DNA of 64,000 nt from Sphaerolaimus hirsutus (Eukaryota > Nematoda > Chromadorea > Monhysterida > Sphaerolaimidae). The notes below the pieces were generated by a model. It ran no database searches and was not told the origin of the DNA. It was given only the letters and a program-made list of their open reading frames with translations. Made by a program: the position numbers and the translations under genes. The stretch is from positions 23,139,832 through 23,203,831 of the forward strand of contig OZ038458.1 in assembly GCA_964036195.1 (NCBI GenBank), written 5' to 3'. This document shows, piece after piece, positions 25,501 to 60,018 of the stretch; the stretch's first letter is position 1, and the number at the start of each line of letters is the position of its first letter.

Positions 25501-28500
25501 GCAAATGTGCGTAACGGGCAGATGTGCGTATCAGGCCTGCCCCGCATAAATCACCCCTGAGCATCCGAGCACATGCACTGCGTTTGCACATCACCAGCCG
25601 GCGCCAATTTTTACCCTTGCGCATTCCGGTAAACTTCAAATGCGTTCAAAGCTGATTTAAAACCGGATTTTTTCCCGGAATTTTGCAAGAAAACTAGTGT
25701 GCACAGGCAGTATAGTTGGATATTCACATCAAACTGTCAAAAAAAGCACCCAAAAATAAAATTCAAGGACGCAACTGTAGCAAAACAAAACCAGCACAAA
25801 ACCGAACCTTAACAACGTATCAACCACCTGCGCCAGCGACAAAGGTCTGCCGTCGACCTCTGTCACTGCCATGCTCGAATGCAGATAAGCTGACGCCTGG
25901 AGCAATTTGTCTACTTCACGCTCGATCACTTTTTGCTTTTTGATGTCTACCTGTGTTTTGATAAGAAGAAAGGTGTAATTAAGTATAATAACCAGAATAA
26001 TGGGGAGAATTAATTTGTTGAGGGCATAAATGTTGCCCCCCCCGCCCCCCCTGGCTACGTCATTGACCCTGATTAAAAAGAATAAAAATCAATTGAAAAA
26101 TCAAGTGCTAGCTATCAATCCCCAACAACATTCTGCATCAAACAAAACATACAAAACTAATAATTGTATAATTCTCCAAAAAAAAACCTGAAAAACACCC
26201 CCCCCCCAAAAAAAACAACAACAACAACACACACACACAAAAAAACCCAACCATTTTCCCAGCCACATCAAACAGGGGCGTTCTTAACTTGACCCGTTTC
26301 AGTTCCAATTCGAACTGCCTGGCCAAGGTGGTGATGGGGTTGCCAGCCAAACCCCGCACTATGGAAGCGCCCAGATCCACGGGCGTGCTGTTGGGACGCT
26401 TCACTGTGGCCAGGCGACCCCCTGGGTGAAGTAGTGTGAAGCGTGAGTTGTGAAGGGTGAAGTGTGAAGGGTGAAGTGAAAGATGGTGAACAGGGGTCAT
26501 CAATGGGGGGATCAACCCAAATCGGCCAGTTAAATATCTATTCAGAGGCAGAGGTTTTGCTACTATCCCCTGGTGACAGTCCCAGACCTTGTAAAATACC
26601 CTGTAAAATGTCATGTAACGACCGAGTATCAGGTATTGAAATTTTTGTATTTGGCCCAGTTCACATCAGGTGTTGTCGGATGTCAACTGAGCCGACTGTT
26701 TTGCATTGATTTTAGTTAATGGTCTGCGAAACCATATTCAAATGAAGGGTGTGCTTCTAAAAGTACCGATCTACAAAAAATTGATTTTGAGATAATCGCG
26801 ATTGAAAGTTTGGAGTATGCAATACCCATACATGGGTATTGGGTAGGGTTCAAACGATATATCGTATCCAGGGACGTAGCCAGGATTTTTGAGCGGGGGG
26901 GGCGGATTGTATACGGACCCCGTCGAACGGGGGGGGGCGGCGCCCCCCCCCCCTAAAATTTTGCCTCTGCAGATGGGGAATGGCGCCATGGCGCTGGCGC
27001 CATTCGTAGGCGTGACGCCATGGCGCCGCTGGCGCTGGCATTGGCGCCAAAACAGCTGTATACGTCTGTATCTTACAGGCATATACAGCGACAAGGACGG
27101 AATTTAGGGAGTTTTTACTGGCTTTGAGGCCGCGGATACTGGTCAAATGAAAATATATGTCGTGTGACGGTAAAATGCGCGCTTGCGCGCAAAATTTTTG
27201 TAAAACTGTGATAAAAGCGTCTTCTGGAAGTGCCATTTTTGGCACATTTTTTGGCCCGGCCCGGGAAGGGGGGGGGGCGGCCGCCCCCCCCGCCCCCCCC
27301 CTGGCTACGTCCTTGATCGTATCGAATATCGAATATCGGATATCGACCATTTTTTAATATCGAATATCGAATATCGATATCGAAAATTTTGAAAAAATAT
27401 CGAATATCGAATATCGATATCGAAAATTTTGAAAAAATATCGAATATCGAATATCGATATCGAATATCGACCATTTTTTCGATATATCGAACCCGTATTG
27501 TGTCCCCAAATTTACTTTTCATTTTCATTTTGAGATGTTTATGGTTGATCTGATGTGCTTATAGTATTGTATTTGATGAGTAAAAGTACAGTATTTATAA
27601 TGTCATTGTTGTTGCAGTGTAAAATTTGAAGCCAGAAAACGCTGATATACTTTTTTGCAACATGCCCTTAAGCAATTAGGTTAGGATGAACTGTAATATC
27701 TACCAATTGTTATTTGTCTGATATACTTTGATTCATCATGTTTTTCTTCTTTTTTCTACCATTGAGTGATGTAAAGCTTGTTAAAATCACTTGCACCATT
27801 CAAATTTCAGTAAAGAGATGATTAACCATGTGTGCAACCACATGAAAATACAATATGCCACTTGAAATATGCCTTGCTATACCAAAAGCATATCGCAATA
27901 TCGAATATCGAAATATCGAATATCGAATATCGACCATTTTTCAATATCGAATATCGAATATCGATATCGAGGTTCCATATCGTATCGATATCGAATATCG
28001 AGTTTCAGAAAAAAATATCGAATATCGATATCGAAAATTTTGAAAAAATATCGAATATCGAATATCGATATCGAAAAGTCATATCGTTTGAACCCTAGTA
28101 TTGGGTATGGGTATTTCGGCCATATTGTTGGGTATCCACATGCATGGGTATAATCATTCATTATATTTACACATAACACTAGCTATATAAAATTTAGTGA
28201 ATTGTATTTTTGTAGTACAGTACATTTCAAAGGAACAAATTGGTAATAGCATGTAGATCGGTATTTTTTAAAGCACAAAATCAGAAAGCTGTAGATCGGT
28301 ACTTTTACCCATAATAAAAAAGCACAAAATGAGTTATTGCGCAACCGGACACCGATCTGACATCAGTACTTTTAGAAGCACAAAAAAAGTGCAGATCGGT
28401 ACATTTAAAAGTAGGGTTGGCCGATGTTTTTTTTTAAACGTTTTTTATTAAAAAAAAACGTTTTTTTTTTAAAAAAAACATGACGTCCGAAATGTTTTTT

Positions 28501-31500
28501 TTTTAAAAAAACATGACGTCCGAAATGTTTTTTTTTAAAAAAAAACATCGACCGAAATTTTTAGTACTAAGCACTAGGTATTTTGCAAAATTTTTGCGCG
28601 CAAGCGCGCAATTTCACACACAAATTGACATTGGTGGTTGTTTTCATTGGTTTTGTGGCATCTTTAGTATCAAAGTATCCATTTATATATGCTACCATGG
28701 GTTAATAAGCCGTCATATGTTGCTGTAGTATATAATATTGAGGTAATGTGCTTCCATGTACCTCCACAGTGTGTAACTTCACTCCCAAAGTAACAACCTC
28801 GTTTTATAACCTTGTTTGATCACTATTCTGTGCCAAACTTTACCTGAAGTCACGAACATTCGACTATAAGGCGATATATGAACGATATTTCGACGAAAAA
28901 TGGATATTTTTGACACAAATCACCACTTATAATGCTATCCCATGGCTCCACATACATTATATGGTCATATAAAACATCACAGGGTATTGCCACTGTCTGA
29001 TATACCAATATATGTTGACACAAGATCATATCTGGGAGCTTTTAAAAAAAAACGTTTTTTATTAAAAAAAAACGTTTTTTTTTAAAAAAAAACGTTTTTT
29101 TTAAAAAAAAAACATCGAGTTAAAAAAAAACGTTTTTTTTCCAACCCTATTTAAAAGAACAATTTTTAAAAAAAGTGTGTAGATCGGTACTTTTAAAAAC
29201 ACAAAAGCTGAAAAGGCTTGTAGATCGGTACTTTTAAAATTTCAAAAACTGTATTTTGCGATTTTTTTTGCTTTTTTCGACCCCCCATATCTCAAAATTG
29301 AATTTCGCACCCCCCACATATTATATATATTTTTGAAGCGCATTTTTATGGGGACCCCAGAAATGGTCCTAACTCAAATTTGAAAAATTTGTAGATCGGT
29401 ACTTTTAGAAGCACACCCTTCAAATGCACATGGCAATATTGATTCCTTCTCTACATTGTCGCATGCGCACTCGAAAATCATCACGCGACCTAAACTGAAC
29501 AAAATAAATTTGACACCGAAACAAGTTGACATCCAGTGTGTGTGTGTGGCAATAGTTCAGCATATTTTCCAACGCAATTTCACTACTAAAAGGAGCAAAT
29601 AATGGGTTCGTTCCTCCAATCATTGTCGCTGAGATTGTCACTAATAATAGCAGTCCACCCATATCCTCTAATAAAGCCCCCCCCCCAAAAAAAGCACCTG
29701 GTCTGGCCCTGGGCTCGAACACGCGCACGTCGCAGCCCCACATTTTGAGCTGCCTGGCGGCCACCAAGCCCGACACGCCCGCGCCCACCACGATCACCGA
29801 CAGCGTTCGATCGGCTGTGCAAAAGGGAATTTGCAAAAATAAAATTTGCAATTTTTGGAATATTGAGCCAGGGTTCTCAAGCCGAGAGTGCGACTTTTAT
29901 CGGGAGAAAGTTGTAGTATGATCAGTGTCGAGATTTGGACAGTTGGCAGTTGTTAAGCCATCACGATAAATTATTGATGTGCGCAAATATTTAAGCATTT
30001 GGGTAATTTTAAATAACGCGAAGTTACATTCACTTTTAATATCTTTATCGTTCTTAAATGATTTTGAACAACGCTCAAAAAACATTTGTTTTCTTCTTCC
30101 CCGCCTGCAAACCCGCCTTAAAAGCACTAAAAAGTGAATACAAACAAACGGGGCAGTTGCCTCGTCGCAGCCTGCAGAAATATGCCGAAATTGATGTAAC
30201 CAAATCGCTCCAGAAACCCATGCAAACGACAGATTAGTCGCGCCTCCTCTGTATTGAGGCAAAATTGATTTTAAAAAGATTTTTGAATTTTTATATCACC
30301 TTTATTTTCAAATTACTCACTGTTGTATGGTTCTGGGATCACTTTCAGCACAAAGTCAACAGTGAGCTCTTCCTGTGAATTTTCCATCCATAATTGAATC
30401 TGCAAATATTTGGATACTATTTATATTGATATATTTTTGCGAAGTTCTTCGACAAAAAATAATTGATATTCAAGGAAAATATGATATTTCGGTTTGATAT
30501 TCTATTTATTTGAGTTCCTAATTTTCGACATAAAATGCTCGATATTCTGAACAAATGATGTTTTGATTGCAACTAGTAATGGAAACAAAAAATGGCACCA
30601 TCCAGAAAAATGGCGCCACGGCGCATTCTGACAGAATGGCGCAATTTCATCACTGGTTGCAACCGAAACTATTTTTTTACTATCAACATTCAAACCATCA
30701 TAACGTTACCACCCCACCCCCCCCCAAAAAAACGCTCACAATTTTATTCCTCAAATACAAGAAAAGTTTCTTTGTGGCATCGGCACCCATTTCAATGTCA
30801 GGGAAACAAGTCAGTTCTTGTCTGGTTAAAGAGTCGGGCGGCAGCCGTGAATGCTTCGCTGCAGCTTTTAGGGCTGGAATTTTTTAAAATTCATTTTTGG
30901 GCGACTTTGTTGAATGTTAAATCATTTGTTGGAGATTTTGATGAATGTTTTTGAAGGCCGACATAGGGATGGCAGCAGTTTTTTCCAACTTTTTTTCAAA
31001 TTCAAACGTTTAAAAACGCACGGATCGAAACCGTTTTCTAAAAAAACGCAGCAAACCTTTTTGGCATTTTGCAAATTTTCTGCGTGCAAGCGCCCAATTT
31101 CACATGTACATTACCATTGATGGTGGATTTCATTGGTTTTGAGGCATTTTTAGTCTAAAAATGTCCTCCCACTGAAACATCACTGTCAATGTACATGGTC
31201 CGGCTGAAAAGTCCCCGGGAAGTGCTCGCAATTCGCGCTAGGGGTAAGCTACGGTCATAAAATATTTGACAGGTTTAGACGTCAGGTGTTTTAAGTTTTC
31301 ACCTAAAATTTTACCCCTCTAGCTCCACCCACTGCGGAACTGGGGGTTACAATTTCGGTCATTTTGTACTGATGTACAAATGGTGCTCTAGCTCAATGCT
31401 GCTTTAAGTTGTGATCATGAAACTTTGGCTAGTGTAAGCCACCAGTGTTGGCAATGTGCCAGCACTAACCAACATTACATATGACATCATAAGCCTAGTT

Positions 31501-34318
31501 CATATTGTCATTACTGTCACTACTCTCACTACCAAATTCATCATTCTGCCTCTCCTTCTCAAAAAGTGGTTAATACAGGATGCATTTTGCATGCACACTG
31601 CTGTTGAACACAGGTAATGTGTCCACTACAGATTAGTAATGAAACATAGGGAAATTTTAAACACGTAACTCACTTACTGCACATTTCAAAACAACATTAA
31701 AATCACTGCATTACAACATGATCTCAGATGATCACCAAAAACATCCATCACAGTTCCCACGTTTTTTGCACATCACCCTGATCTGCATATTAATTTTACC
31801 TTAAAAGCAATGATGTTGAAAAAAGTGTTGAATATTATCAGCACATTACCAACACTGGTGGCTTACACTAGGCAAAGTTTCATGATCACAACTTAAAGCA
31901 GCATTGAGCAAGAGCACCATTTGTACATGGTCGGGCTGAAAAGTCCCCGGGCAGTGCTCGCCATTCGCGCTAGGGGTAAGCTACGGTTATAAAATTTTAA
32001 CACGTTAATATATAAGGTGTTTTGAGTTTTCACCCAAAATTTCACCCCTCTAGCTCCACCCACTGCGAAACTGTGGGGGTTACAATTTCGGTCATTTTAT
32101 ACTGATGTACAAATGGTGCTCTAGCTCAACCCTGCTTTAAGTTGTGATCATGAAACTTTGGCTGGTGTAAGCCACCAGTGTTGGCAATGTGCCAGCACTT
32201 ACCAACATTAGCTATGATATCATAAGCCTAGTCCATATTGCCATTACTGTCACTACTCTCACTACCAAATTCATCATTCTGCCTCTTCGGTTGGTCAATG
32301 GGCCTCCACACGCTAGTTGACATCTCATTTCAGAGTCAACTCAGAGTCAACTAGTGTTTCAGTTGACGCAATCACTCACCACTTGACTTTTTTAAAAGAG
32401 CATACGCGTTAACCCATATTTTTGGCATTTAGCTCATGTATTTCATTGAAAAAGTCAACTGGAAAAATCCATTCTCAGAAACGAGTTGACCCTGCTTTCT
32501 ACGATGCAGTTTGTGTGATTTAAAGATTGTTATGTGATAGACCATAATTAATCTGATTTTTTGACACCTAATTATCATATATTGTGTGAAGCATAACCAA
32601 ATGAAAAATTATTTGCATGTTCCATATTCAAAAAAATTTTATTGTTTACATGTGTGAATGCTTGTTAATTAGATAGTTGTTTCATGTACTATAAATGTCT
32701 GTGAATTTTTCTGTACTAATTATCATTCGTAATAAATTTTTTTATTGATTATCATTTTATCATTTTACTAATTATCATTTCGTGACACAAATATCTGTAC
32801 TGCCCAAATTTACTAGTTGACATTATCATTACTGTGTACGGGGTCAACTAGAGTCAACTGAAAAAAATTTCAGTTGACTCTGAGTTGACATTTTACATGC
32901 GAAAAATGCGATGTCAACTAGCATGTGGAGGCCCAATACAGGTTAATACTAGGGTTGGAAAAAAAACGTTTTTTTTTTAACTCGATGTTTTTTTTTTTAA
33001 AAACGTTTTTTTTAAAAGCTCCCAGATATGACCTAGTGTCAACATATATAGGTATATCAGACACTGGCAATACTCTGTGATGTTAAATATGACCATATAA
33101 TGGCTGTGGAGCCATGGGATAGCATTATAAGTGGTGATTTGTGTCAAAAATATCCATTTTTCGTCGACATATCGTTTGTATATCGCCTTATAGTCAAATG
33201 TTCGTGACTTCAGGTAAAGTTTGGCACGGAATGGTGATAAAACAAGGTTATAAAAGGAGGTTGTTACTTTGGGAGTGAAGTTACACACTGTGGAGGTACA
33301 TGGAAGCACATTACCTCAATATTATATATTACAGCAACATATGTCGGCTTATTCACCCATGGTAGCACATAGAAATGGATGTTTTGATACTAAAAATGCA
33401 ACAAAACCAATGAAAACAACCACCAATGTCAATTTGTGTGTGAAATTGCGCGCTTGCGCGCAAAAATTTTGCAAAATACCTAGTGCTTAGTACTAAAAAT
33501 TTCGGCTGATGTTTTTTTAAAAAAAAAAACATTTTGGACGTCATGTTTTTTTTTATAAAAAAACAAAACGTTTAAAAAAAACATCGGCCAACCCTAGTTA
33601 ATACAGGAGGCGTTTTTTATGCACACTGCTGTTGAACACAGGTAATGTGTCCACTACAGATTAGTAATGAAACACAAATGAAATTTAATTGACATAATAA
33701 TTTACTGCACATTTCAAAACAACATTAAAATCACTGCAATACAACATGATCTCAGATGATAACCAAAAACATCCATCACAGTTCCCACGTTTCTTGCACA
33801 TCACCCTGATCTGCATATTAATTTTACCTTAATAGCGATGATGTTGATGAAAGTGTTGAATAATATCATCACATTGCCAACACTGGTGGCTTACACTAGC
33901 CAAAGTTTCATGATCACAACTTAAAGCAGCGTTGAGCTAGAGCACCATTTGTACATCAGTACAAAATGACCGAAATCGTAAAATTTTATGACAGTAGCTT
34001 ACCCCGAATGGCGAGTACTGCCCGGGGACTTTTCAGCCGGACCATGTACAAATTAGCCTTCTCTCATCTTTTTTAAGCTCTATTCCATGCCAAACTTCAC
34101 TTGAATCACAGCGTGGGAAAAAAACGGATTCCATCAAAAACGGAAGAAAAAAATTCCCACACCCCTAACAAGCGCAAAAACTACACAACCTTAAAAAACC
34201 TACACAACTCATCCTCGTCAGCGGTGAAAATCTCCACATTTTCCGGCATGGTCATCATGGCGTGCGCGATGGCCGTCACCGGGCTGGGCAGCGAGCCGCC
34301 CGACGGCACCGACGACAT
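22583..34318 (-). CDS. KDM1A: KDM1A/LSD1-type lysine demethylase, N-terminal two thirds only (10 exons)
   Basis: Family role: FAD-dependent demethylation of histone H3K4me1/2 in a nuclear CoREST-type complex. Exons, transcript order: 34318-34204, 30858-30740, 30399-30321, 30248-30150, 29814-29698, 26421-26252, 25950-25808, 25199-25109, 23396-23155, 22731-22583; 1324 nt, about 441 aa, phases agree. The SWIRM domain (about 47-130) is shown by LPPDSLTRQELTCFPDI, LQ/IQLWMEN, PYN, and LERFGYINFGIF. FAD Rossmann motif VIVVGAGVSGLVAARQL is at about 144-160, then GGRLATV and VDLGASIVRGLAGNP. Exons 7-9 form the helical tower, and exon 10 (DVYINSSDRSLIDWLLARLE) re-enters the oxidase fold. The second half of the oxidase domain, which would hold the substrate pocket lysine and the second FAD motif, is not found anywhere lower in the window. 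The last donor (GTGAGT, 22582) points to missing exons. The acceptor of exon 2 could also be six bases earlier. Large introns are full of nested elements. Confidence 0.85.
23588..24023. mobile_element. hAT-like MITE, family D, with perfect 8-bp duplication
   Basis: CAGGGCCGTATCCAGG to CCTGGATACGTCCATG, flanked by CCCCTGTG (23580-23587 and 24024-24031). It is inserted in an older TACCGTATTT-type element whose halves lie at about 23446-23579 (CCGTATTTCATCGAAATACC) and 24032-24066 (TCGAGAAATACGGTA). Confidence 0.93.
24219..25029. mobile_element. long family D element, two inverted halves
   Basis: CAGGGACGTATCCAGG to CCTGGATACGTCCCTG, 811 bp. Flanks GATTTATT and GATATAAT agree at six of eight positions. 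The centre (about 24600-24660) is a GGGAAGGGGGG/CCCCTTCCC palindrome, and the halves carry the same GCGCGC and GGCGCCA landmarks in inverse order, about twice the normal length. Confidence 0.75.
25323..25543. mobile_element. palindromic MITE, family Q copy 3, in KDM1A intron
   Basis: Inverse orientation relative to the copies at 5085 and 10222: starts GGGGGTGCACTGATACGCAC, ends CAGGCCTGCCCC. Perfect duplication GCATAAAT (25315-25322 and 25544-25551). Confidence 0.92.
26028..26068. repeat. right-end fragment of a family D element
   Basis: C/G runs followed by CCTGGCTACGTCATTG, matching the right end of the intact copy at 26869-27315. No left end. Confidence 0.5.
26844..28097. mobile_element. 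hAT-like element, family C (TATCG arrays), interrupted by a family D copy
   Basis: Starts TAGGGTTCAAACGATATA, ends CGTTTGAACCCTA, perfect duplication GTATTGGG (26836-26843 and 28098-28105). Just inside both ends are arrays built from ATATCGAATATCG and GAAAATTTTGAAAAA units (27316-27490 and 27893-28080); between them is a unique core with TGATTAACCATG and CACATGAAAATAC. The left terminal repeat is split by the element at 26869-27315. Confidence 0.93.
26869..27315. mobile_element. hAT-like MITE, family D, nested in the family C terminal repeat
   Basis: CAGGGACGTAGCCAGG to CCTGGCTACGTCCTTG, flanked by ATCGTATC on both sides (26861-26868 and 27316-27323). The target lies 17-24 bp inside the family C terminus. 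Confidence 0.93.
28412..29149. mobile_element. hAT-like element, family B (AAACGTTTTTT arrays)
   Basis: TAGGGTTGGCCGATG to CCAACCCTA, duplication TTTAAAAG on both sides (28404-28411 and 29150-29157). Terminal arrays of poly-A/T separated by ACG or CGT flank a roughly 480-bp core (28555-29040) containing GCGCGCAAGCGCGCAATTTC and TTCATTGGTTTTGTGGCAT. Same core, inverted, as 32950-33596. Confidence 0.94.
29158..29690. other. KDM1A intron: repeated GTAGATCGGTACTTTT motif
   Basis: GTAGATCGGTACTTTTA(A/G)A is repeated at intervals from about 28250 to 29410, once more as GTACCGATCTAC at 26762-26773 in inverse. This outlines another inverted element into which families C and B inserted. No coding content. 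Confidence 0.45.
30964..31193. mobile_element. left part of a family F element (same core type as B and E)
   Basis: Begins TAGGGATGGCAGCAGTTTTTT followed by AAACG/AAAACGCA array units, then the core shared with families B and E (GCGTGCAAGCGCCCAATTTC, TTTCATTGGTTTTGAGGCAT). Interrupted at 31194 by a TA-target element; the core resumes at 34047 with CAAATTAGCCTTCTC. The right terminus was not found. Confidence 0.65.
32300..32933. mobile_element. family N element nested in G
   Basis: GGGCCTCCACACGCTAGTTGA on the left and ATGTCAACTAGCATGTGGAGG on the right; GAGTCAACT repeats lie near both ends. Core is AT-rich without coding potential. Confidence 0.65.
32950..33596. mobile_element. hAT-like element, family B, inverted copy nested in G
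   Basis: TAGGGTTGG to GGCCAACCCTA, duplication GTTAATAC on both sides (32942-32949 and 33597-33604). Core is the inverse complement of 28412-29149, including GAAATTGCGCGCTTGCGCGC. Confidence 0.94.
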
Positions 34319-47300: not shown

Positions 47301-47729
47301 TACCCCCCAGGTGCTAATATTCCCCGAAGCGACGTGTCACAATCGCAAGTCGCTGTTGCAATTCTACACGGGTGCCTTCGTGCCCGGCGTGCCCGTGCAG
47401 CCCGTGTGCGTTCATTGGCCCCGAGATAACTGGTCCGATTTTGTGTCCTATGTGTTTGAGGGGCCTGGATCGTTGGTGGGGGGGGGGTTGTTTGGGGGTG
47501 ATGTTGATTTTTGGTAGTCGGGTAGATGTGGAGTTTTGCGTATGTAAAATAATGTTCGTAAAATTGTAACTGCTCATTGACCCTACGCACACTAGTTGAC
47601 AAGGACACCAAATGTCAACTGGTTCCTATCGCAACAGTTGGAATACAGTTGCCATTTGGCGTCGTTGTCAACTAGTGCGTGTAGGGCCAATAGCCCCTAT
47701 CAACGGATACAAATATATATATATATTTA

Positions 47730-47772
<43 letters not shown>

Positions 47773-50700
47773 ACAACGTTTTTTTAAACGCACGCATCGA
47801 AACCGCCTGCCACAAGTATTGCCACTTGTCTATTTATCGGCGTTTGTTGACTCGTAAACACAGTTGAGAACTTTGTTGTTGTTGTTGTTGTTGTTTGTTG
47901 TTGAAAGTTGTTTAACGTTTTTTACTAAAAAAACGGGTCGTTGAAAAAAAACACCCATTTTTCCCATCCCTATGTATAAATTGTCTTCTGTGCGGCCAGA
48001 ATAGAAGAATCATCTATTTTTACTGCGATATCATTTACTGAAACGTCTCTTTTCAGCTGGATGCTATTTTGGCTGCAGCTTTGCAAACTCTGGCATCCGC
48101 CTGTGGTGGTCGAGTTTTTGCCAGTTTATAATCCGACTGAAATGGAGAGGGGTGAGTTGAACATTGTCCTGTTGTAAACTTGCTTACCGTATTTCCTCGA
48201 AATACACCCAGCGGGTTTATTATTTCACCATAAAATTTCGAAGGGGGGTTTAATTCGAGCGGGGCCTATTCGACTACACAAAGAAGTGTATGTGTAGATA
48301 CGATGCAAATTGGCAACAATCAATGCATCATGTACAGTCAGGGGTTTGGGGGAACCCCCCCCCCCCAACGGCCCAGCTATCTGGGGGGTATTTCCAGGGG
48401 TGCTCTATTAAGTGATATAGTACGAGGAAATATGGCTTTTAGATGTTGAATTTGATGTGTAATTTTCACCTAACAGTTGTGGGCATTTTTCACGAAACTG
48501 TTGCAAGGACGTATCCAGGGGGGGGGCGGGGGTGGCTGCAGCCCCCCCCCCCCTCCCCGGGGTGAGACCCAAAAAGTCCCGGAAAATCCTATATATTTTC
48601 AGATGTTGCTTAAAAATTTTGCGCGCAAGCGCGCAATTTCTTCCCCATGCATTGTATTTTCAACGGATCGACCCCTGCGAACCAATATCCTCGGAAATAA
48701 ACACATTTTTGCGAATTTCGCTGCATATGTATGCATTTGTACTAGGGATGGAAAAAAGCGCTTTTTTTAACGGCCCCGCTTTTTTTCAAAAAAGCGCTTT
48801 TTTCGCTTTTTTTCAAAAATTGTCAAGGCGTTACCTAAAAAGCTTCCAAATATGGTCCTGAGTCAATATATACAGGTATATCAGACAAGTGACAGTACTT
48901 GTGATGATATATAACCATACAATGGCTATTTAATCATCTGATAGCATTATAAGTGCTGATTTCTGCCAAAAAAATTCCAATTTTATGTCGAATAATTATG
49001 TATATTGCCGTTTTTTAATGTTTCTTGACTGCAAGTGAAGTGAGGCATGGAATAGTGCTTAAATTTGGCTATAAAAGATGGCTAATATAAATATGACAGT
49101 GATGTTTCACACTGTAGAAAAGTGGAAGCACATTGGCTGGATATTATTTACAACACTTACATATCTCCTCAACTTATTATTACATAATACCATGCAGGAA
49201 TAGGAGCAATGCCACTAAAATGCTACAAAACCAATAAAAACAACCACCAATTTGGCAATTTGCATGTGACATTATGCAGTGAAATACCTAGTGCATGAGT
49301 ACTAAAAATTTTGCCAGCGCTTTTTTTGAAAAAAAACGCGCTGGGACCCTTGCGCTTGTTTTTAAAAAAACGGCGTTTTTTATTAAAAAAAGCGCTTGAA
49401 AAAAAGCGTTTGCCATCCTAATTTGTACATACATATAAAGCGGCTTCTGGCGCTGGCGCCAACGCCAATAGCACCATGGCTTGGCGCCGTTGTATGGTGC
49501 TAGCGCCAAAACGCCTTTCCGTCCCTTCATAGGGAAAAAAATTAGGGGGGGGGGGCTGAGCCCCCCCCGTTCGCTGGCCCCCGTAAACAAGCAGCCCCCC
49601 CGCTCAAAAATCCTGGATACGTCCCTGAACTGTTGGATCGATCCGTCTATTCGTAATTCAATGTCTTTTTAATATGTTCCATTTCGATAGTTTATATGAA
49701 AAAGTTCTGGATATACGATATCCGATCCGTTAAATATTTCGTTACTCGTGGCAGATATCGATATTCGATATTCCGGAAAACATTTTTGATATCGATTTTT
49801 AAATATGAAAGTATTTGGTGTTTGGAAACGTTTCTATGCAATGCTAAACGATCGATAAACGTCTCCCAGGAAATCCCGCCCTCTATGCGGAAAACGTGCG
49901 TAAACTTATGGCGAAAACGCTGAACGTTAAACTGAGTCCATACAGTTACAGCGATGTGCCTTACGTTTGTTATAACGAAAAAAGACCAAATTTGGAATAT
50001 GTGCACAAACTTTTTGATGCTGTGAGGTGAGCTTTCATGTTTTCATTCATATATTGTGTTTTTATCATTTTTGTGCGTCTATATCTTTTGTATTTAAATG
50101 CTGCGTGGTTTCAGCACTAAATCTGGCTACTAGTAAAAATGAATCCAAACCTCTTATCAGGGCATGCGTGGGGTGGGAAGGGGCAGGTCCAAACTAAAGA
50201 TTTTACACTGTATTTGGGCCATAATTTTGATGATCGACATTGTTGGATAAAGAAAAAACGCCCGACGTCCAGTACCAAGACGTTTGATAAATAATTTTCG
50301 TAAATTGAATATTTATGTGGTTGACGTTCATTTTCCATTTATATTTATGTGCCACTAGTTTATGGCGCACCGCACACTGAAATTTTGAGTTCGAACGTTT
50401 TTGCACGCTGAAATCAAAATCTAAAGAACACAACGTTTTTGAAGCCTAAAAACTTCGACTCACATGCAAATTGCGCGAAATATTACAAATTATGAAGTTT
50501 TTACGCTTCAAAAACGTTGTGTTCTTTAGATTTTGATTTCAGCGTTTATAATTCAGCGTGCAAAAACGTTCGAACGCTGAACGCAAAATTTCAGTGTGCG
50601 GTGCGGCTATGACCACGCAAATATCGCACCCCCGAATCATCGATCGTACATACGAAACGTTTTTTATCACACTCAGAGATCCGTACACAGCGGAAGAAAA

Positions 50701-53700
50701 TGATCTGGCTTCAATAATGCAACGAGCATATTCAGACGATTTTTTGGCATCTCGCCAATTTCGGCTTGGCCGCCGGGATTTTTCACAATTTTTTAATTCA
50801 GATTCTAAATTAAGTTCAAATGATGAATTCATTCGCAAACTATTCAATGTGTTCGACATTGGGTGTAAAAATGAAATTGATATTAGAGAATATCTAATTG
50901 TCAGATATGGCGGGCCGCCCGCGACCGAATTTTTCGAAACCGCTTTCACGGTATGTTTATATGTTGGAATGGGTAATGATCTATCTGTACGATAAATTTT
51001 TGTCAAACACTTGTTCAAACCTGTTTAAGTACAGACAAGGACCTATCCCTGGGTTAGAGCAGGGAAATGCTTAAATTAGTTTCGCGTTAAATTTGTTAGG
51101 TTGGCATAAAATTTTTCCATTCTACATTAGGTATTTTCGGCGAATCGATTCCATCACTCTTTAAGTGAATTTTTTGTGGGGCTCAGTGGGCCCGGGCGGC
51201 TCAAGAAACAGCCCCCACGGTCAAAAACCCTGGATAAATACGTCTATGAGTACAGGTGATTTACTCCTGATTAAAGAAAAACGAGGTAAATGGTTTAATT
51301 ACCGGTAAATTTTCACATTACAGCGAATTTTACCATAATATTATTGTGATGGATAGAGTCATCTGATAAATCGTGCGCTATAAAAGCGATAAATATAAAA
51401 GGCAGAGAAAAAAATGTCTGGGTTTTTTATTCAGATTGATATGGTCAATACAACGTAAAGAACCTTCGTGGTGGAAAAAATCGTTTTTTCTATCCTCAAT
51501 TTAAAACGAAAAGTTCTACCCAGAATTTTTTATATTAAAAGACTATCTTTTATCTATCACATAAAAATAGTGTCTGGAAAAAAACATCTCTGTATCCAGG
51601 CACTGGCACAAACGAACGATATAGACAAAGCTTCGATATCAGTTCATGAGGCACTAATGATAATTCGACTGCCTTGTTCATTGACTGTAAATATGGCTGA
51701 AAAATTGTGCACATTGGCAGCTGGTAGCACGGACACTGTTTTATTTGGTTGGTTTTCTGGGTGGTTTTTTTTGGGGTGGGGGGGGGGGGGTTTAAAGGCA
51801 ATTTGTATTTACCGTATTTCCTCGAGTTACCCCCTGGGGTTTTTTTCAGAGTGAAAATTTTGAGAGAAAAACGTGAAAAATGCAACAATAACCACCATTA
51901 ATAAGTTTTTACGGCCTTATATAAGGATGTAGATGGTATAAACGATGTTCTAACGTAACACAGCAAGTGTTTTTGAACGACTCAGGCTCTCTGTGCATGT
52001 TTACCCGCTGTGCATGTAGACCCTTATTTTCACACATAATCGCTCATTTTCATACCATTTTATACATTTTCACCTTCAAAATCACTAGTTCATGTGTTTT
52101 ATTGTCTATTTTCTTGTAGTATATGTGCTTACATACCCATTTTTAGTAATTTTTCACCTACTTTTAGCGATTTTTCTACCTTTTTTCCTCATTATGAAAT
52201 AGCCTATACAATGAACCCCCACGAACCCCCAAACCCCCCAAAATATTTTTCTAGCTATCTATCCCTCCAGAGGAGCGATTAGCCATCTATCCAACCCCCT
52301 GGAGGGTCAAAGTCTTGAAAACTCCTGACATGCACAGCGGGTAAACATGCACAGAGGCACAGGCCCGTTTTGAACGTCTGTTATGCATTTTCCGGACCAC
52401 AAATTCATAGTGCCCATTTTGAGGGGGGGGGGGGGGGGGTATTTCGAGGAAATACGGTATTTCACAATGCCACCTATACTCTGCGGACCGCAGACTATGC
52501 ATTTTTCTGAAGGAAACAAACACTATCTTGACGTCATCGTTAACAAAATAAAAAATGTTCCAAAAAAGGAGTTAACGTTTGCGGAAAAAACATTCGTCGC
52601 TTGTACGCGACTCCGCCTTTTCTATAAAAAAGTATCCTGCTCGCGAGTTGTCAACCAAGACATTAGTAATTTTGGACGCATACTTTGCGGTCAGCCGAGA
52701 ATACCTATTTTTCTCCCCTCTACACCTTGAAAGGCAATGTGAAAAAGCCTTGAACCGCGCGAACCCTCCGCCACACCGAGTTGTTAAAAGTACTGAACTT
52801 TTTCAAAGTATGCATATGCATAAAGTATTCTGTTTTTACTCACCCCCGAGTACAGAAAGCGTAAAGTAATTTTTTTACTTTTACTCACGCGTAAATGAGA
52901 GTAAAGTTTTTTTGCCAGAGAGCGTAGCGAGTATTTTTTGCTCAGGATAGCGGTGGATAGCATGCAATGTTTGTGGAAATACAAAAATTCTTGTTGTGAA
53001 TAGGTAGGCAGGTTGACATCAAACGTTATAAAAGCAATGGATTTTGTAACTATTAATTAAAGTCACATGTGTCGTTGTCAGATGGTAATTAAACTATGGT
53101 GGGCACACTTCTAGCGTGAACCACGCGTGCGAGGTGAAAAGCAGAGTTGCGAAAGTGTATTTACACTTACCCTCAATACCCGGGTAAATGGGTATTTATA
53201 TTTACACTTGCACTTACACTTTCATAAAATACCCGTACACTTTTTTACATGTTCCTGGGCAAAATACCCGGGTACAGAAAGTATTTTTTCTTTCAGATGG
53301 CCCTGTTTTATGCTTTTGAGAAAGCAAAAAAACAGGCTCATGTACAAAAAATAATTGCACAGTGCACATATGCAGTTATGTATTGAATGTAGAAAATATG
53401 GCAAATGTGCAAACTAGCACTAGGGATGGCCAGCGCTTTTTTAGCGCTTTTTAAAAAAAAAAAGCGCTGGCAAAATTTTTTGTACCTATGCACTAGGTAT
53501 TTTTGAGCGTCATTACTTCTATTCCTGCATGCTTTCATATAATTAAAAGCTGTGATGAGTTAGTGTAATATAAAATATCCAGCCAATGTGCTTCCACATA
53601 CTTCTACAGTGGGAAACATCAGTGTCAATGTATTAGCCTTCTCTTATAACCTTATTTAAGCATTATTTCATCCCTAACTTCACTTGAACTCATGACCATT

Positions 53701-54644
53701 TGACAAATAGCAATTGACATAACGAGTCAACATAAAAAAGTGGATTTTTGGCATAAAACCCCACTTATAATGCTGTCCCATGGCTCCACAGCCATTCTAT
53801 GGCACTATATCATCACAAGTACTGCCACTTGTAAGATATACCTGTATATATTGACTTAAAACCATATTTAGGAGCTTTCTAGGAAATGTCTTGATATTTT
53901 TTGATAAAGGCGAAAAAGCGCTTTTTTTAAAAAAGCGGGGGCGTTAAAAAAGCGCTTTTTATCCATCCTTAACTAGCACTATCTCTGACTTTTGAACAGT
54001 ACTCATGGTATTCTACAGTTTCATCATACCTTTGTAAAAAGGACAAGATCAATTTAAATTCACCAGCTGGACACAAAGTCAACTGGCTTTTGCATTGATA
54101 TTTGCTGCATGTACATTCTTGCATTTAAACAGTGTGTATCACATTGCTTAATCAGTAGAATATCAACACTGAAAAAGTGCCATTATTAGGCAACTTCATA
54201 CCACTAAATTTGTTACAGTCTGAAATGTTTCATAATTGGCAGTAAAATGTGAAATAATGAATGAAAATGATAGACAAATTGATCTAAAGGTGAAAACAGT
54301 GGTGTTTTCTAATGCTCAACAGTGAGAGCTATTTCTAAAAAAATTTACACTTACACTTTTTTACACTTTCCTGGGTATTTTAAAAATACCTTACACTGTT
54401 GGTATCCATACTTAAAATTTGGAATGTGTATTTACGCTTACACTTACAATTTCCAAAAATACCAGTATTTTAACAACTCTGGTGAAAAGTCACTGGTATA
54501 CTTGTTGTGTATATTTACATCACATCACAATTAATTGTGTGTTTCCCTTTGGAAATTACAGGTGAACTGATGTTTGCACTGTCAAAGGCTCACTACAAAC
54601 CAGAGTTCTATTGTGCGAAGTCAATTTGTGCTATTGAGGATTGA
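44315..54644 (+). CDS. LPCAT-type lysophospholipid acyltransferase with EF-hand region, complete (10 exons)
   Basis: Family role: acyl-CoA dependent reacylation of lysophosphatidylcholine (and related lipids) at the ER or lipid-droplet membrane. Exons 44315-44389, 45814-45953, 46239-46456, 46900-47030, 47311-47471, 48057-48151, 49870-50026, 50677-50950, 51600-51747, 54562-54644; 1482 nt, 493 aa, phases agree. The N-terminal SPFENSVSLSKLQ resembles the LPCAT1/2 start; membrane helix LLCCGVLMCITVFVAYVAGL about 37-57. Acyltransferase motif I is PHTSFFD (H113, D118). Motif III is PEATCHNR (about 193-200), with Ala where the family has Gly. EGPG, VVVEFLPVYNPTE and NPALYAENVRKLM follow the family order. 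The C-terminal part (FDIGCKNEIDIRE and later TNDIDKASISVHE) aligns with the two EF-hands but both loops lack the usual calcium ligands. ATG 44318 is an alternative start. Introns hold many transposable elements. Confidence 0.9.
44414..44797. mobile_element. family D element, left end damaged, LPCAT intron 1
   Basis: Right end CCTGGATACGTCCCTG is intact; the left begins CAGGGCTGCAGC, lacking the CGTATCC part. Interior GGTGAGACC, CATTTATATGTATATTTGCA and GGCGCCAGCGCC landmarks are present. It starts 24 bp after the exon 1 donor. Confidence 0.65.
44960..45490. mobile_element. family K element (TTTTCCG arrays) without cargo, LPCAT intron 1
   Basis: CAGGGTGTCAACTTTCCG to TTGACACCCTA, 531 bp. Arrays of CCGTTTTCCGGC and ATTTTTTTCCGTTTCCG units on both sides of a short middle with GCCAAACTGGTAAAC and GCATGCAGGTT. 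No clean 8-bp duplication. It is the cargo-free counterpart of 36238-38240. Confidence 0.75.
45630..45783. mobile_element. family N element, LPCAT intron 1
   Basis: GGCCCCACACACGCTAGTTG at the left and GATGTGTGGGCCCG at the right; ACACCAAATGTCAACTGGTT pairs with CCAGTTGACATTTGGTGT. Confidence 0.65.
46518..46842. mobile_element. family S element with perfect 8-bp duplication, LPCAT intron 3
   Basis: CTGGGGTCTCGAATGG to CTAGGAGACCCCTG, flanked by GGGTAAAT (46510-46517 and 46843-46850). Contains CAGCTATCTATCTATCTAT and a long C run. It ends about 57 bp before exon 4. Confidence 0.88.
47580..47692. mobile_element. short family N element, LPCAT intron 5
   Basis: CCCTACGCACACTAGTTGAC at the left and GTCAACTAGTGCGTGTAGGG at the right; ACACCAAATGTCAACTGG is matched by an imperfect inverse GTTGCCATTTGGCGTCGT. 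Confidence 0.65.
47711..47769. repeat. AT-rich microsatellite
   Basis: (AT)n with an internal TTTA stretch. It is followed to 47972 by a family F right end (AAACGCACGCATCGAAACCG, then CCCATCCCTA). Confidence 0.9.
48504..49627. mobile_element. family D element interrupted by a family E element, LPCAT intron 6
   Basis: CAAGGACGTATCCAGG to CCTGGATACGTCCCTG, flanked by AACTGTTG (48496-48503 and 49628-49635). The 48743-49420 segment is a later insertion; removing it leaves a normal family D element of about 440 bp. Confidence 0.93.
48743..49420. mobile_element. hAT-like element, family E (AAAGCGCTTT arrays), nested in D
   Basis: TAGGGATGGAAAAAAGCGC to GTTTGCCATCCTA, duplication ATTTGTAC on both sides (48735-48742 and 49421-49428). 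AAAAAGCGCTTTTTT-type units at both ends; core with ATAGCATTATAAGTGCTGAT, similar to the family B core. Confidence 0.94.
50365..50607. mobile_element. palindromic MITE with about 90-bp arms, LPCAT intron 7
   Basis: GCGCACCGCACACTGAAATTT on the left, AAATTTCAGTGTGCGGTGCG on the right, and a long inner pair (ATCAAAATCTAAAGAACACA, AACGTTTTTGAAGC) around a short loop. TATG flanks both sides (50361-50364 and 50608-50611). It ends 69 bp before exon 8. Confidence 0.7.
51969..52381. mobile_element. inverted element interrupted by a family S relative, LPCAT intron 9
   Basis: CTCTGTGCATGTTTACCCGC at the left matches in inverse GCGGGTAAACATGCACAGAG at the right. Between them is family S type sequence with AGCTATCTATCCCTCC units. 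The ORFs at 52383-52869 beyond it have no recognisable domain. Confidence 0.5.
53142..54481. mobile_element. hAT-like element, family Z (TTTACACTT arrays), interrupted by family E
   Basis: CAGAGTTGCGAAAGTGTA to TTTTAACAACTCTG, duplication GTGAAAAG on both sides (53134-53141 and 54482-54489). Arrays of TTTACACTTACACTT and ATACCCGGGTA near both ends. It lies inside the right part of a family Y MITE and carries the element 53421-53971. Confidence 0.93.
53421..53971. mobile_element. hAT-like element, family E, nested in Z
   Basis: TAGGGATGGCCAGCGC to TTTTTATCCATCCTTA, duplication ACTAGCAC on both sides (53413-53420 and 53972-53979). Core is the inverse of 48743-49420. Confidence 0.93.
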
Positions 54645-55117: not shown

Positions 55118-55535
55118 CAAGGACGTATCCAGGGGGGGCGAGGGGGGCTGCAGCCCCCCCCCCCTTCCTGGGGTGATACCTGAAAAGTCCCGGAAAATGC
55201 AACTTTTCCAATATATTTTTAGATGTTGCTTAAAAATTTTGCGCGCAAGCGCGCAATTTCTTCCCCATACATTGTGTTTTCAGCGGATCGGTCCCTGTAA
55301 ACAAATATCCTTCGAAATGAACACATCTTTGCGACTTTCGCTGTACATGTATGCATATTTACATACATATAAAACGGTTCCTGGCGCTGGCGCCAACGCC
55401 ATGGCGTGGCGCCTTTGTATGGCGCTAGCGCCAAAATGTCTTTCCGTCCCTATATAGGGAAACATCCCCCCCGTTCGCCGGCCCCCGTAAACAAGCAGCC
55501 CCCCCCCCCGCTCAAAAATCCTGCATACGTCCCTG
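55118..55535. mobile_element. family D element with perfect 8-bp duplication
   Basis: CAAGGACGTATCCAGG to CCTGCATACGTCCCTG, flanked by ATTGTATT (55110-55117 and 55536-55543). Typical 418-bp size and landmarks. Confidence 0.93.
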
Positions 55536-56569: not shown

Positions 56570-56582
56570 TGTGGGGGGGGGG

Positions 56583-57355
56583 TAGGGTTCAAACGATATA
56601 TCGTATCGAATATCGGATATCGACCATTTTTTGATGTCGAATATCGATATCGAAAATTTTGAAAAAATATCGAATATCGATATCGAAAATTTTGAAAAAA
56701 TATTAAATATGGAGTATCGATATCGAAAATTTTGAAAAAATATCGAAAATCGATATCGAATATCGACCATTTTTTCGATATATCGAACCTATATTGTGTC
56801 CCTAAAAAGGTATCATTTTCATTTTGAGATATTTATGATTGATCTGATGTGCTTGATCTGATCTGAGAATTGTATTAGATGAGTAAAAGTACAGTACTTA
56901 TAATGTCATTTTTGTTGGAGTGCTAAATTTGAAGCCAGAAAATGCTGATATTCTATTTTTTGCAACATGCCCTTAAGCAATCAGGTGAACAGTTATCAGT
57001 ATGAACTGTAATATCTACCAATTGTTATTTGTCTGATACACATTGATTCATCATGTTTTTTTCTACATGTTCTACTTTTGAGTGATGTAAACCTTGTTTA
57101 AATCACTTGTACCATTCACATTTAACTAAAGAGATGATTAACCATGCGTGCAACCACATGAAAATACAATATGTCACTTGAAATATGCCTTGCTATACCA
57201 AAAGCAAATCGCAATATCGAAAATATCGAAATATCGAATATCGACCATTTTTTTAATATCGATATCGAGGTTCCACATCGTATCGATATCGAAAATCGAG
57301 TTTCAGAAAAAATTATCGAATATCGATATTGAAAAGTCATATCGTTTGAACCCTA
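56583..57355. mobile_element. hAT-like element, family C (TATCG arrays)
   Basis: TAGGGTTCAAACGATATA to CGTTTGAACCCTA with eight G on both sides (56575-56582 and 57356-57363). Same arrays and core as 26844-28097. It inserted in the G run next to the family S element. Confidence 0.92.
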
Positions 57356-57469: not shown

Positions 57470-57945
57470 CATAGTTGTTAAAACGTATTTACTTTTACTC
57501 GATAAATACGTATACTTGAGTACAGAGTAAATACGTTTACGTTTCCTCCGAAAAAAAGTTCCTTTACTCGCTTTTACGTATACTTTTTGAAAGTACGCGA
57601 GTACAGAAAACGTATTTTAGATAGTCTTTTATGTCGATTTTTAAAGGCATAGAAGGAAAAAATTGAGAGAATTTGCTAAAAACATTGGAAAAATGGTCGA
57701 AAATGAACATATAAGCACACATCGAGGAAAGATTTGCTTAAAATAAGCAAAAAGTTATGAAATTTGTTTGATTTTGAGTTAAAATTGGAGAGTCATTTCT
57801 CAAAAATACTCACTTTTACGTTTTGCGGATGGAAAAGTACGTTTACTCACGTTTACTCATGAGTAAAAGCAAAAAATTGTACTTTACGTTTTCTGTACAC
57901 AAGTGGTGAGTAAAAAAAACAACTTTATGTTTACATATAAACTCA
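57470..57945. mobile_element. element with TTTACTTTTACTC arrays, Z-like
   Basis: TAGTTGTTAAAACGTATTTA at the left and GAGTAAAAAAAACAACTT at the right; units of ACGTTTACTCACGTTTACTC and AGTACAGAAAACGTA near both ends. Design matches family Z but no clear target duplication. A partial relative lies at about 52788-52935. Confidence 0.5.
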
Positions 57946-58640
57946 GCGGACATTTCACCCTACAAAATCGGAGAGTTAGAATTCGCTCGTGAATAGAGCG
58001 AACAACGAAACTTGTGTCCCACGCGGACGCTAGAAATTGAAAAAGAAAATCATATTAAAAGAAAAATGGACGTTTCGCTGCGTTCGTGCGTGCCACGCCC
58101 TTGTTATCTACATTTTCAACGTTGCTCGTAAAGAATTTGACCGTTCAAACTACCGTTTTACTGTTCAAACTACCGTTTTTGTTTTTATTTTATTTTTCAT
58201 TCGTTGGCTCCGTTCCAACAGGAGAGAACTTGGCAGCCAGCCAAAATTTCGAAATCCGCTATTAATATGATTAAATTAGGCTCACAATAGCTATATAACC
58301 ATGTATAAAAACAAAAATAGCGATTATGAAGGTGGAAATTGTCAAAGCGAAGCAAATTTTAATGATTTTAGCTAACTTTCAGTTTTCACTCTCATTTGTA
58401 TAATACGCAACTGGAAACTGGGATAAGGGCCAAGTTTTCATGCTTGACCCGATCTATTCCAATGGTTAAAATATTGCGTCACAATACCTAATGCCGTCAT
58501 GCACCCTCCACTGGAGAGATTGACGCAAATGTTTGTAGGGCGATACGTCTGCCAACTTTACTTTGAAAAACGTTCAGTACTTTTAACAATTGTGGGCCAC
58601 AGCTGCACATAGATCCATGCACACGCAGAAATAATCAAGT
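57946..58640. other. intergenic, no gene recognised
   Basis: Contains one ORF of about 77 codons (58037-58270) rich in hydrophobic residues near its end, but without a recognisable family or splice context. I do not call it a gene. Confidence 0.4.
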
Positions 58641-58644
58641 GCAC

Positions 58645-58912
58645 ATTGGCCCCACACACGCTAGTTGACGCCAAAATTAGCGTCAACTCAGAGTCAACTG
58701 GTCAAAAATTCAATTGACTCTGAGCCATTTACAATATGTATCCAAAAAATCCCCTTCTTTCATTATACATCAATCGACTACTCAATATTTCTTAATCAAC
58801 ACAGGTAAAAAATTAAAAATAGTTATACTTTTGACATGAAAACAGTTGACTCTGAGTTGACTCAATCTACTTCTAAAAAGTAGCGTCAACCACCGTGTGG
58901 AGCGCCATTGCG
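58645..58912. mobile_element. family N element
   Basis: GGCCCCACACACGCTAGTTG at the left and GTCAACCACCGTGTGGAGCG at the right, GAGTCAACTG and CAGTTGACTCTGAGTTGACT inside. Confidence 0.6.
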
Positions 58913-59084
58913 GCACCTCCCTAACTCGATCGACTTGCGTCCCAATTCATTTGATTGCATAAATAATGCAAGCAAGCGCGCATTAATCCAATATTCCCGC
59001 GGACCTTTTCAGCGAATTAACAGTATTAATGGTTTCTCTTGGATATGCATATGCCGCGTGAACGAATTCACCCGCGGTAGTGAC

Positions 59085-60018
59085 TAGTGATGTTAAAGGC
59101 ACCGGGAAAAATGGCACCGCACCGCACCGGCACCTTTGCCAACGCATGAAAAGGGCACCTGGCACCCTGGGGCACCGGCCAGAAAATGGCACCGCACCGC
59201 ACCGGCACCGGTGCCTTTTGGAAAAAATGGCACCGGCACCGAAGGGCACCGGCGGGTTGCCGGTGCTAGCACCGAAAGGCACCGCACCGGGCAGGAATTT
59301 CTGAAGTAAATATCGGGCAGTTTCTCAGTGGTCTCACCTTTGGAAGTGCATATTTCCATGAATTTTCAACCGATTTTGATGGTTGAGCACTTAAAATGAT
59401 CAGAATGATGTGGCAATCACTTTTATGAAGCAATTACAATGATTACAAATGAAAGATAAAATATTTAATTCACTACAATGTCCATAGCCACTATTGTCTA
59501 CTGATTGGAGTCGTTGCTGTACAGAGAATGGAACTATCTCTGTCGTAAACTGACAACAAATTTTGAACAAAAAAGAAAAGATACATAAATATAAAAATGA
59601 TTTAAAATTCAACAAATTTTTAGATTCGCTCATCAGATCACGTATCGGGTATAATGGATTTCACAGTAGGTATATTTATTTGATGGGAGGTTTACAAAAT
59701 AGGCAAAAACGGTTGGGTAAATATATCGCTGTTTTTTGAAATATGAATAAGCACATACTATGGACAAAATTGCACAGCAAATGAAGCCTTGGCCGGTGCC
59801 TTTCCCGGTGCCTTTTACTTTGCCATGGTGCTAGCACCTTTGGCACCGGCAAAAAAATGGCACCGCACCGCACCGGCACCGGTGCTATTCTGAAAAAAAT
59901 GGCACCGGCACCGGCATGGCACCCCTGAAGATTGCAATGGCACCGCACCAGCACCGGTGCTGGTGCCCTTCGGTGCCCAGCACCGGGGCACCGGTGCCCC
60001 GGTGCCTTTACATCACTA
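59085..60018. mobile_element. hAT-like element, family L (GGCACC arrays)
   Basis: TAGTGATGTTAAAGGCACCG to GGTGCCTTTACATCACTA, 934 bp, duplication GTAGTGAC on both sides (59077-59084 and 60019-60026). Arrays of GGCACCGCACCGGCACC-type units (59095-59290 and 59788-60010) bracket a roughly 500-bp AT-rich core with no transposase ORF. Confidence 0.94.

Follow-up and report, generated by a model that had tools for sequence, protein, structure and literature searches.

Elements in the window

The window analysed here is a 64,000-nucleotide stretch from the nematode Sphaerolaimus hirsutus (G000:C14:23139832-23203831, in a 348.5-Mb assembly). It harbors a set of hAT-like transposable elements, bounded as a rule by an 8-bp target site duplication (TSD) and short terminal inverted repeats (TIRs), which carry arrays of a short, family-specific word near their ends. 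By their TIRs these elements and their relatives elsewhere in the genome fall into seven clans, A to G, and in one of them, clan B, sister families have changed the word site by site on a conserved scaffold. A first-pass annotation of the window had named eleven elements with 8-bp duplications, TAGGG-like ends and family-specific arrays. All eleven have the right start bases, and the claim is borne out by identical flanking 8-mers, matching TIRs and word counts. A scan for exact brackets (an 8-bp TSD plus a hAT-type TIR), which demanded [TC]A..G ends and is blind to other ends, returned 16 brackets in the window and none in any of 20 local dinucleotide shuffles. When 20 further loci of about 10 kb each are added (262,019 bp including the window), 63 exact-TSD brackets are found, against 0-1 per shuffle. 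Seven shorter loci complete the sample beyond the window; the 27 loci (L009-L035) are not a random sample of the genome because they were chosen around hAT matches.

Clan A is represented by three elements with TATCGA arrays and by one solitary end. The element at 26844-28097 (TSD GTATTGGG, TIR TAGGGTTCAAACGATAT) has the array at both ends, with 44 copies of TATCGA or TCGATA in the 799 bp that remain once a nested element of the CAGGGACGTA type (26869-27315) is subtracted. The other two lie at 40463-41213 (TSD CATGCCAC; 29 motifs) and at 56583-57355, which has a low-complexity TSD, GGGGGGGG, the TIR and 31 motifs. The solitary end, at 6080-6256 with an approximate inner limit, has the TIR TAGGGTTCAAA reading from 6256 and ATCCCG words (ATCCCGATCCCG); no second end was found for it, and its TSD octamer occurs once in the window. 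The element at 40463-41213 sits between exons, read by eye, of a gene for the ribosomal protein eS7, a gene that marks the DNA as animal. A protein search with eS7 gave 4,561 matches at E 0.001, and the 120 matches listed include several animal phyla and a few plants.

Clan F contains two families in the window. AACGTT arrays mark the element at 28412-29149 (TSD TTTAAAAG; array at both ends), whose interior is 69% identical to the AGCGCT family over 528 columns (E 5e-49), and the element at 32950-33596 (TSD GTTAATAC), which is placed by family alignment. AGCGCT arrays mark the elements at 48743-49420 (TSD ATTTGTAC), nested within a CAGGGACGTA-type element at 48504-49627, and at 53421-53971 (TSD ACTAGCAC), which lies inside the clan B element at 53142-54481. 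Exact units are few in this clan (4 and 5 for AGCGCT, 6 and 3 for AACGTT, thus 3-6 per element). The segment at 30964-34167 is a degraded AACGTT/AGCGCT relative with AAACGG-like words, split by an insert that contains the 32950 element. Its interior is homologous, but it was not counted as a third AACGTT relative since no TSD was found.

The clan G element at 36238-38240 (plus strand; TSD GTTCGGGT) has TTTTCCG arrays at both ends in the same orientation, with TTTCCG 44 times on the plus strand and 0 times on the minus strand. A second one, at 44960-45490 (plus strand), has 25 and 0, and its flanks form an inexact duplication (GCCATGGC / GATGGCAC). The first is nested in the clan E element at 36042-38269 (TSD TAGCGCAC; 19 copies of GGTTC, on one strand), which without its guest is only 217 bp long and consists of one continuous GGTTCC array. 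Between the two TTTTCCG arrays of 36238-38240 lies a broken fragment of a BEL/Pao retrotransposon, with a Peptidase_A17 match (E 3e-7) at 36494-36781.

Clan B is found twice. The element at 53142-54481 (plus strand; TSD GTGAAAAG) carries somewhat degraded arrays of TTTACACTT, or GTGTA; its arms align with those of the GCGTA and ACGTA sister families, and 11 of its 16 cores are exact GTGTA, with one GCGTA. The element at 57470-58594 (plus strand; TSD GGCCACAG) was absent from the first-pass annotation. It has TTTACTC/ACGTTTAC words, its end aligns with a 6-kb element of contig C3, and its second array lies away from the right end. Clan C is represented by one element, at 59085-60018 (TSD GTAGTGAC), with GGCACC arrays at both ends (27 motifs).

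Specificity and placement of the arrays

The words are concentrated in the elements of their own family. Outside the listed elements their density is 0.08 to 0.91 per kb (0.40 per kb for TATCGA), and counts in elements of other families are small, for example four GGTTC in each TATCG element and two AACGTT in 57470-58594. In most elements the counted words occupy the outer thirds, in line with the first-pass description of arrays just inside each end. That description does not hold for the GGTTCC element, with its single continuous array; further departures are 57470-58594, the right third of which has no counted word, and the TTTTCCG elements, each with a single central TTTCCG.

The 63 brackets comprise 9 of the CAGGGACGTA type, 4 of a CAGGGGT type and, as the residual class, 50 with array-type TIRs, three of which are supplied by two tandem copies at locus L023. 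In 44 of the 50, both 250-bp arms contain one and the same 6-mer four or more times, a score reached by 3.1% of 5,000 random segments. None of the 9 CAGGGACGTA-type and none of the 4 CAGGGGT-type brackets reaches it, so that families with an 8-bp TSD and no arrays also exist. In the window, CAGGGACGTA-type copies without shared word arrays lie at 22131-22536, 23588-24023, 26869-27315, 48504-49627 and 55118-55535; one copy of this family hosts an array element and one sits inside an array element. The six array-type brackets below the score are 26844, whose arm is filled by the nested element, 32950, a 139-bp element, L018:3490, L027:1162 and L014:6764-7134, in the last of which no clear array is visible.

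Comparison of left and right arrays, which the first-pass annotation had proposed as a check, found the dominant word at both ends in 41 of the 44 elements of a within-clan table. The remaining rows are L030:398, 57470 and the mixed element L027:1162. TTTCCG words stand on one strand at both ends in all 10 copies, which shows that these arrays, if not others, are no mere extension of the TIRs; GGCACC words are found on both strands. An ordinary microsatellite or satellite, which the first-pass annotation had named among the outcomes that would undo its reading, was rejected as the source of the arrays, since the words are concentrated within elements and shared between both arms.

AAACTC is the word at both ends of one more family, which has CAACGATGG termini and was seen at L013:2973-4136 and L019:5195-6025. 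Other repeats in the window are also built from short repeated words. AGTTGAC is repeated near both ends of short repeats with CACTAGTTGAC...GTCAACTAGTG-like ends (7486-7705, 15508-15737, 32299-32935, 45630-45780, 47578-47694 and 58650-58890). No clear 8-bp duplication was seen by eye at these six window copies, which may represent the same array design outside hAT. Two related short repeats, at 16126-16260 and 39881-40026, have abundant TGTAAAATGTCA words at both ends. A repeat of 17-bp units (AACGGGCAAATGTGCGT) is found at 5085-5311, 10222-10448 and 25323-25543, and a bracket at 5197-10337 (TIR 14/14, TTGCGCAA) has two of these copies close to its ends.

Transposase sequences and assignment to hAT

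The TIRs of hAT elements are short and start with C/T-A-R-N-G. The ends observed here are TAGGG, CAGAG, TAGTG and TAACG, while CATAG at 57470 deviates at the third base. An identical 8-mer flanks 12 window elements, the eleven named ones and 57470-58594, and 44960-45490 lacks an exact TSD. The hAT superfamily prefers nTnnnnAn as its target, and 20 of 56 distinct TSDs have this form against a background of 9.7% (p 1.2e-7). The P superfamily also makes an 8-bp TSD, and P-type transposases have a THAP domain. Mutator-type elements, with which the VANDAL transposons and their VANC proteins are grouped, have a TSD of about 9 bp, and that of the elements described here is 8 bp.

A genome-wide profile search with the hAT dimerisation domain (PF05699) reported at least 28 matches, and the surroundings of all 28 were inspected. 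Twenty-six lie inside array elements: 4 in clan A (TATCGA), 4 in clan B, 7 in clan D (TTCGAA) and 11 in clan G (TTTCCG). An exact TSD brackets eighteen of the 26, and a TSD with a single mismatch brackets four more (L013, two at L017, and L018). For the remaining four, at L016, L019, L022 and L025, no TSD was verified and the evidence is a pair of flanking arrays or one clan end; L019 is assigned to an array element by one end. Two matches, at L030 and L032, are outside any recognised array element. E values against PF05699 range from 4.4e-18 to 2.9e-7 for four C-terminal pieces (clans B, G, D and G) and from 2.5e-9 to 5.7e-7 for the clan A matches. In this domain clans A and G, both with TAGGG ends, are 53% identical, two clan B sequences are 60% identical, and the other eight pairs are at 27-45%.

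Two of the nested arrangements could mislead. The match at L022 is no evidence for the GGCACC family, because it lies in a TTTTCCG element, only one end of which was found, inside a GGCACC element. Likewise L012 is no evidence for clan E, because its match lies in an ACGTA element of clan B that is nested in a clan E element. Transposase sequence thus supports a hAT assignment for four of the seven TIR clans, and clans C (GGCACC/GGCGCC), E (GGTTCC) and F (AACGTT/AGCGCT) are placed in hAT provisionally by TIR and TSD. The first-pass term "hAT-like" therefore stands on transposase sequence for TATCG and TTTTCCG copies elsewhere in the genome, for the TTTACACTT/TTTACTC clan in its ACGTA and TACG members and for the TTCGAA clan, and on TSD and TIR for the AACGTT/AGCGCT, GGTTCC and GGCACC families and the TTTACACTT family itself.

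The first-pass annotation had also suggested a search for autonomous hAT copies with the same arrays. A candidate is the 6,006-bp element on contig C3 (G000:C3:40743-46748; TSD CCTTGGCG), which has clan B ends. Its sequence contains a hAT C-terminus (E 4.9e-17) and, on two exons joined by eye, a marginal zf-BED match (E 4.8e-4) that scores 20.5 bits against a cut-off of 20.6. The joined exons match the solved Hermes transposase with E 4.6e-12. This element is possibly autonomous.

Word change between sister families

The arms of clan B share the scaffold CAGAGTTG..AAA..GTATTTAC..TTACCC, and those of the GTGTA, GCGTA and ACGTA families align base for base. Between the GTGTA arm of L018 and the GCGTA arm of L014 or L027, the same T-to-C change is present in 15 of 16 cores, while the spacers are 93% or 90% identical. 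Between the GCGTA arm of L014 and the ACGTA arm of L012, G is replaced by A in 15 of 16 cores, with spacers 88% identical. When the five-column cores are compared with the spacers, divergence differs by Fisher's test for GTGTA and GCGTA (p 0.004 and 0.045) and for GTGTA and ACGTA (p 3e-6). A rough binomial with generous neutral rates puts the chance of 15 identical changes in 16 sites at about 1e-15 or less, a figure that measures coherence across units and not discovery, because the families were named by the word. A loose arm search produced 12 P and 43 Q candidates; the spacers of 11 P and 10 Q arms match the reference at 80% identity or more. These 21 arms are mostly in a single state with single exceptions; the arm at L012:8748 is too decayed for calling.

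Within families, the two GCGTA copies differ in 0 of 80 core columns and in 15 of 206 spacer columns (p 0.014), and the ACGTA copies of L012 and L025 in 1 of 74 core and 17 of 207 spacer columns (p 0.05). Because the 260-column arms of the GCGTA and ACGTA families run into non-homologous interior, clan B was judged from the base-for-base arm alignment. Core constraint between copies is also present in the TTTCCG (p 0.0012) and GCGCCA (p 1.4e-5) families, as it is for GCGTA and ACGTA, and is absent for GGCACC (p 1) and AACGTT (p 0.85), the copy alignments of the families outside clan B being uncertain owing to the repeated arrays.

The site-by-site change is clear in clan B. Looser cases of word change are found in clans A, C, E and F, and a site-by-site component is suggested there. 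In clan F, the interiors of the AACGTT and AGCGCT families are 69-75% identical, and at sites aligned by eye ACGT or ATG words in one family stand opposite GCGC words in the other. In clan A, TAGGGTTCAAAC ends are combined with TATCGA (six copies), ATCCCG (L018:6419-6839) or GTCCCG (L026:6237-6375), and the spacers can be aligned in part. In clan C, TAGTGATG ends are combined with GGCACC (three copies) or GGCGCC (five). Clan E has GGTTCC and GGGTAT, with one bracketed copy apiece. The first-pass proposal that families diverged by replacing their motif is therefore well supported and can be put more sharply, the best case being change at individual sites of a conserved scaffold.

At L018, from 9446, a clan E-like TIR (TAGGGTTGGGA) is joined to a TATCG array of clan A, possibly a hybrid of TIR and array. 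The end of the AACGTT family had no match in the genome_contigs collection, and neither the TATCG end nor the GCGTA arm had a match in the viral_contigs collection.

Relation to known systems

Short words inside the TIRs are known from other hAT elements, and the comparisons made here are with the sections of the cited papers drawn on for each system. Fish hAT miniature elements with TAGGG ends and palindromic word arrays may share this build, which would make the design widespread. The ends of maize Ac/Ds contain multiple AAACGG hexamers within about 200 bp; these bind the Ac transposase and probably give specificity, and non-autonomous derivatives have the TIR and the hexamers in common (PMC3260210). 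The elements described here resemble Ac/Ds in having many short words at each end, but the Ac/Ds account describes a single hexamer family-wide and no sister series with a recoded word (PMC3260210). In Hermes of the house fly, subterminal repeats are bound by BED fingers (PMC10368747). Common to Hermes and the elements here are a hAT transposase, short words inside the TIRs and an A/T-rich context; the Hermes words on both ends appear from the same source to be mostly one-stranded, like TTTCCG (PMC10368747). The Hermes words are, however, fewer and precisely placed (PMC10368747), whereas the words here form dense fields, each peculiar to its family and altered from one sister family to the next. 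On the protein side, the N-terminal DNA-binding domains of hAT elements bind diverse words (CGG, CGC, GCGC and AT-rich), and each of the four hAT-encoded motifs had matches in subterminal sequence of the model of its own element (PMC8097297). The hAT-derived CGG-binding proteins express the protein side of the same idea; array families and stepwise word change are not part of the account drawn on (PMC8097297).

Outside hAT, the VANDAL elements of Arabidopsis have arrays of short family-specific motifs that evolve together and differ between relatives; their C-type and T-type motifs are one base apart, and the arrays are bound by an anti-silencing protein, VANC, and evolve by gain and loss of tandem repeats (PMC5735166, PMC10398659). 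By contrast, the elements here are hAT-like, their arrays lie beside both TIRs, and single bases are recoded on conserved spacers. The foldback elements Tetris and Galileo have tandem repeats inside their TIRs, proposed to be extra transposase sites, but the units are long (about 220 bp in Tetris) and lie in long TIRs, and word recoding does not figure in the source as used here (PMC4079207). Galileo belongs to the P superfamily.

The first-pass remark that no group built this way had been described thus holds in part. Already in print are the subterminal word fields of Ac and Hermes, the variety of words bound by hAT domains and the coevolving motif arrays of VANDAL elements; coordinated site-by-site word change in hAT families was not the subject of any paper listed from an open-licence library, as judged by title and abstract opening.

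Interpretation of the arrays

We consider it probable that the arrays are transposase-binding fields that are recoded site by site as specificity shifts, and this reading fits the literature. The alternative nearest to it is that the words are targets of a second, element-encoded protein with an anti-silencing role like that of VANC, which coevolves with the motif. Such proteins bind short motifs amassed as tandem repeats that differ among related VANDALs (PMC5735166, PMC10398659), and the fields here exceed what Ac, with three words, or Hermes, with few and precisely placed ones, needs (PMC3260210, PMC10368747). The fields nevertheless adjoin both TIRs even in clan A elements of 139 and 421 bp, as end recognition would predict, and we regard a second protein as unlikely, although it is the principal competitor. 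It is likewise improbable that the elements simply carry ordinary tandem repeats, shaped by slippage, unequal exchange or conversion and homogenised without any role in recognition. Elements with internal tandem repeats are known, as in Tetris (PMC4079207), and higher-order units of 33-40 bp differ in number among the TATCG copies and among the TTTTCCG arrays. Against this process stand the concentration of words in elements and their identity at both ends, as counted above, and the arms of clan B, where each word differs by one base but the spacers still correspond as orthologues position for position; homogenisation would have carried the spacers along.

We give very little credence to a mutational origin of the word changes, in which methylation-driven C-to-T change would convert GCGTA to GTGTA, AGCGCT to AACGTT and GGCGCC to GGCACC in parallel. 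The steps are transitions, and decay of CpG could yield GTGTA and GGCACC. In the arms of 10 TTTCCG copies, however, decay yields both products about equally (36 TTTCTG and 37 TTTCCA), while three GTGTA arms with at least 80% spacer identity, outside the site definition, contain 16 GTGTA and 0 GCATA. Two of these 16 GTGTA stand at the non-switching site, and two L023 arms with 51% spacer identity and one GCATA each were excluded. CpG decay as a cause is thus disfavoured, being symmetric in TTTCCG when the counted GTGTA arms have no GCATA; in addition, the GCGTA-ACGTA and AGCGCT-AACGTT steps alter bases outside CpG. The least credible explanation is that words change to evade host silencing, by small RNAs or a host DNA-binding repressor, and are merely tolerated by the transposase. 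Escape from RNA-directed DNA methylation has been proposed for VANDAL arrays (PMC10398659), but escape from small RNAs would be unlikely to spare the spacers, which make up most aligned columns of the arms; the coherent change observed falls in the word. With homogenisation contradicted by the clan B spacers and methylation decay disfavoured, selection on each word by some reader remains; and because Ac and Hermes read subterminal words and hAT domains bind diverse ones, we infer that the arrays are transposase-binding fields and that the reader is the element's own hAT transposase.

Several observations weigh against that conclusion. The sixteenth clan B site stays TACAC in the GCGTA family and never switches, core and spacer divergence (five core columns) differ weakly between GCGTA and ACGTA (p 0.063), and the clan B words are mostly, not wholly, on one strand (for example 7/0 and 6/2). 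Young copies show no core constraint, the core being less conserved than the spacer both in TATCG (core 0.059, spacer 0.043; p 0.066) and in TTCGAA (p 0.015). None of the 28 reported PF05699 matches falls in the window, and among them there is none in clans C, E and F or in the GTGTA and GCGTA families of clan B. In a large protein search with the joined exons of the 6,006-bp element, 7,995 candidates were scored and not one matched at E 0.001. Finally, Hermes needs only a few precisely placed words (PMC10368747) and Ac three (PMC3260210). The missing constraint in young copies fits neutral decay after insertion, and is in itself no evidence of selection.

With binding fields as the preferred reading, the following mechanism can be proposed. 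The elements are read as hAT transposons, mostly non-autonomous, that have many copies of a short recognition word at their ends, separated by A/T tracts; an element's own transposase would bind these words through its BED finger and DNA-binding domain. If a transposase lineage shifted its specificity, copies with more matching words would move more often; the whole field would thereby be recoded site by site, parting the new family from the old transposase. One-stranded TTTCCG words at both ends would make the left and right ends unlike, as in Hermes. Selection would act only on the lineage that goes on transposing, and young copies would then be without core constraint.

On balance, though with less assurance than for binding fields as such, we favour the view that this single genome preserves several hAT family series in the act of switching their recognition word. 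TIR and spacers would have stayed in place as a fixed scaffold, and selection would have recoded 15 or more sites individually as the DNA-binding domain changed. The series would be GTGTA-GCGTA-ACGTA, ATATCG-ATCCCG-GTCCCG, AACGTT-AGCGCT, GGCACC-GGCGCC and GGTTCC-GGGTAT-like, with one or two bases per step and each step taken by almost all units at both ends. We give this view as a whole somewhat better than even odds.

If this is true, transposons would have undergone repeated speciation through lock-and-key change. Which non-autonomous copies a transposase moves, and when a family splits off as a lineage, is decided by its specificity for its own DNA. Sister families that differ by the same base at about 15 homologous sites, with conserved spacers, are a natural experiment on change in multi-site recognition, where the protein and every site have to change in step. 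The DNA-binding domains of hAT elements have often been domesticated as transcription factors (PMC8097297). The series would also predict the binding words of hAT DNA-binding domains and offer a classification of hAT miniature inverted-repeat transposable elements by TIR clan and word.

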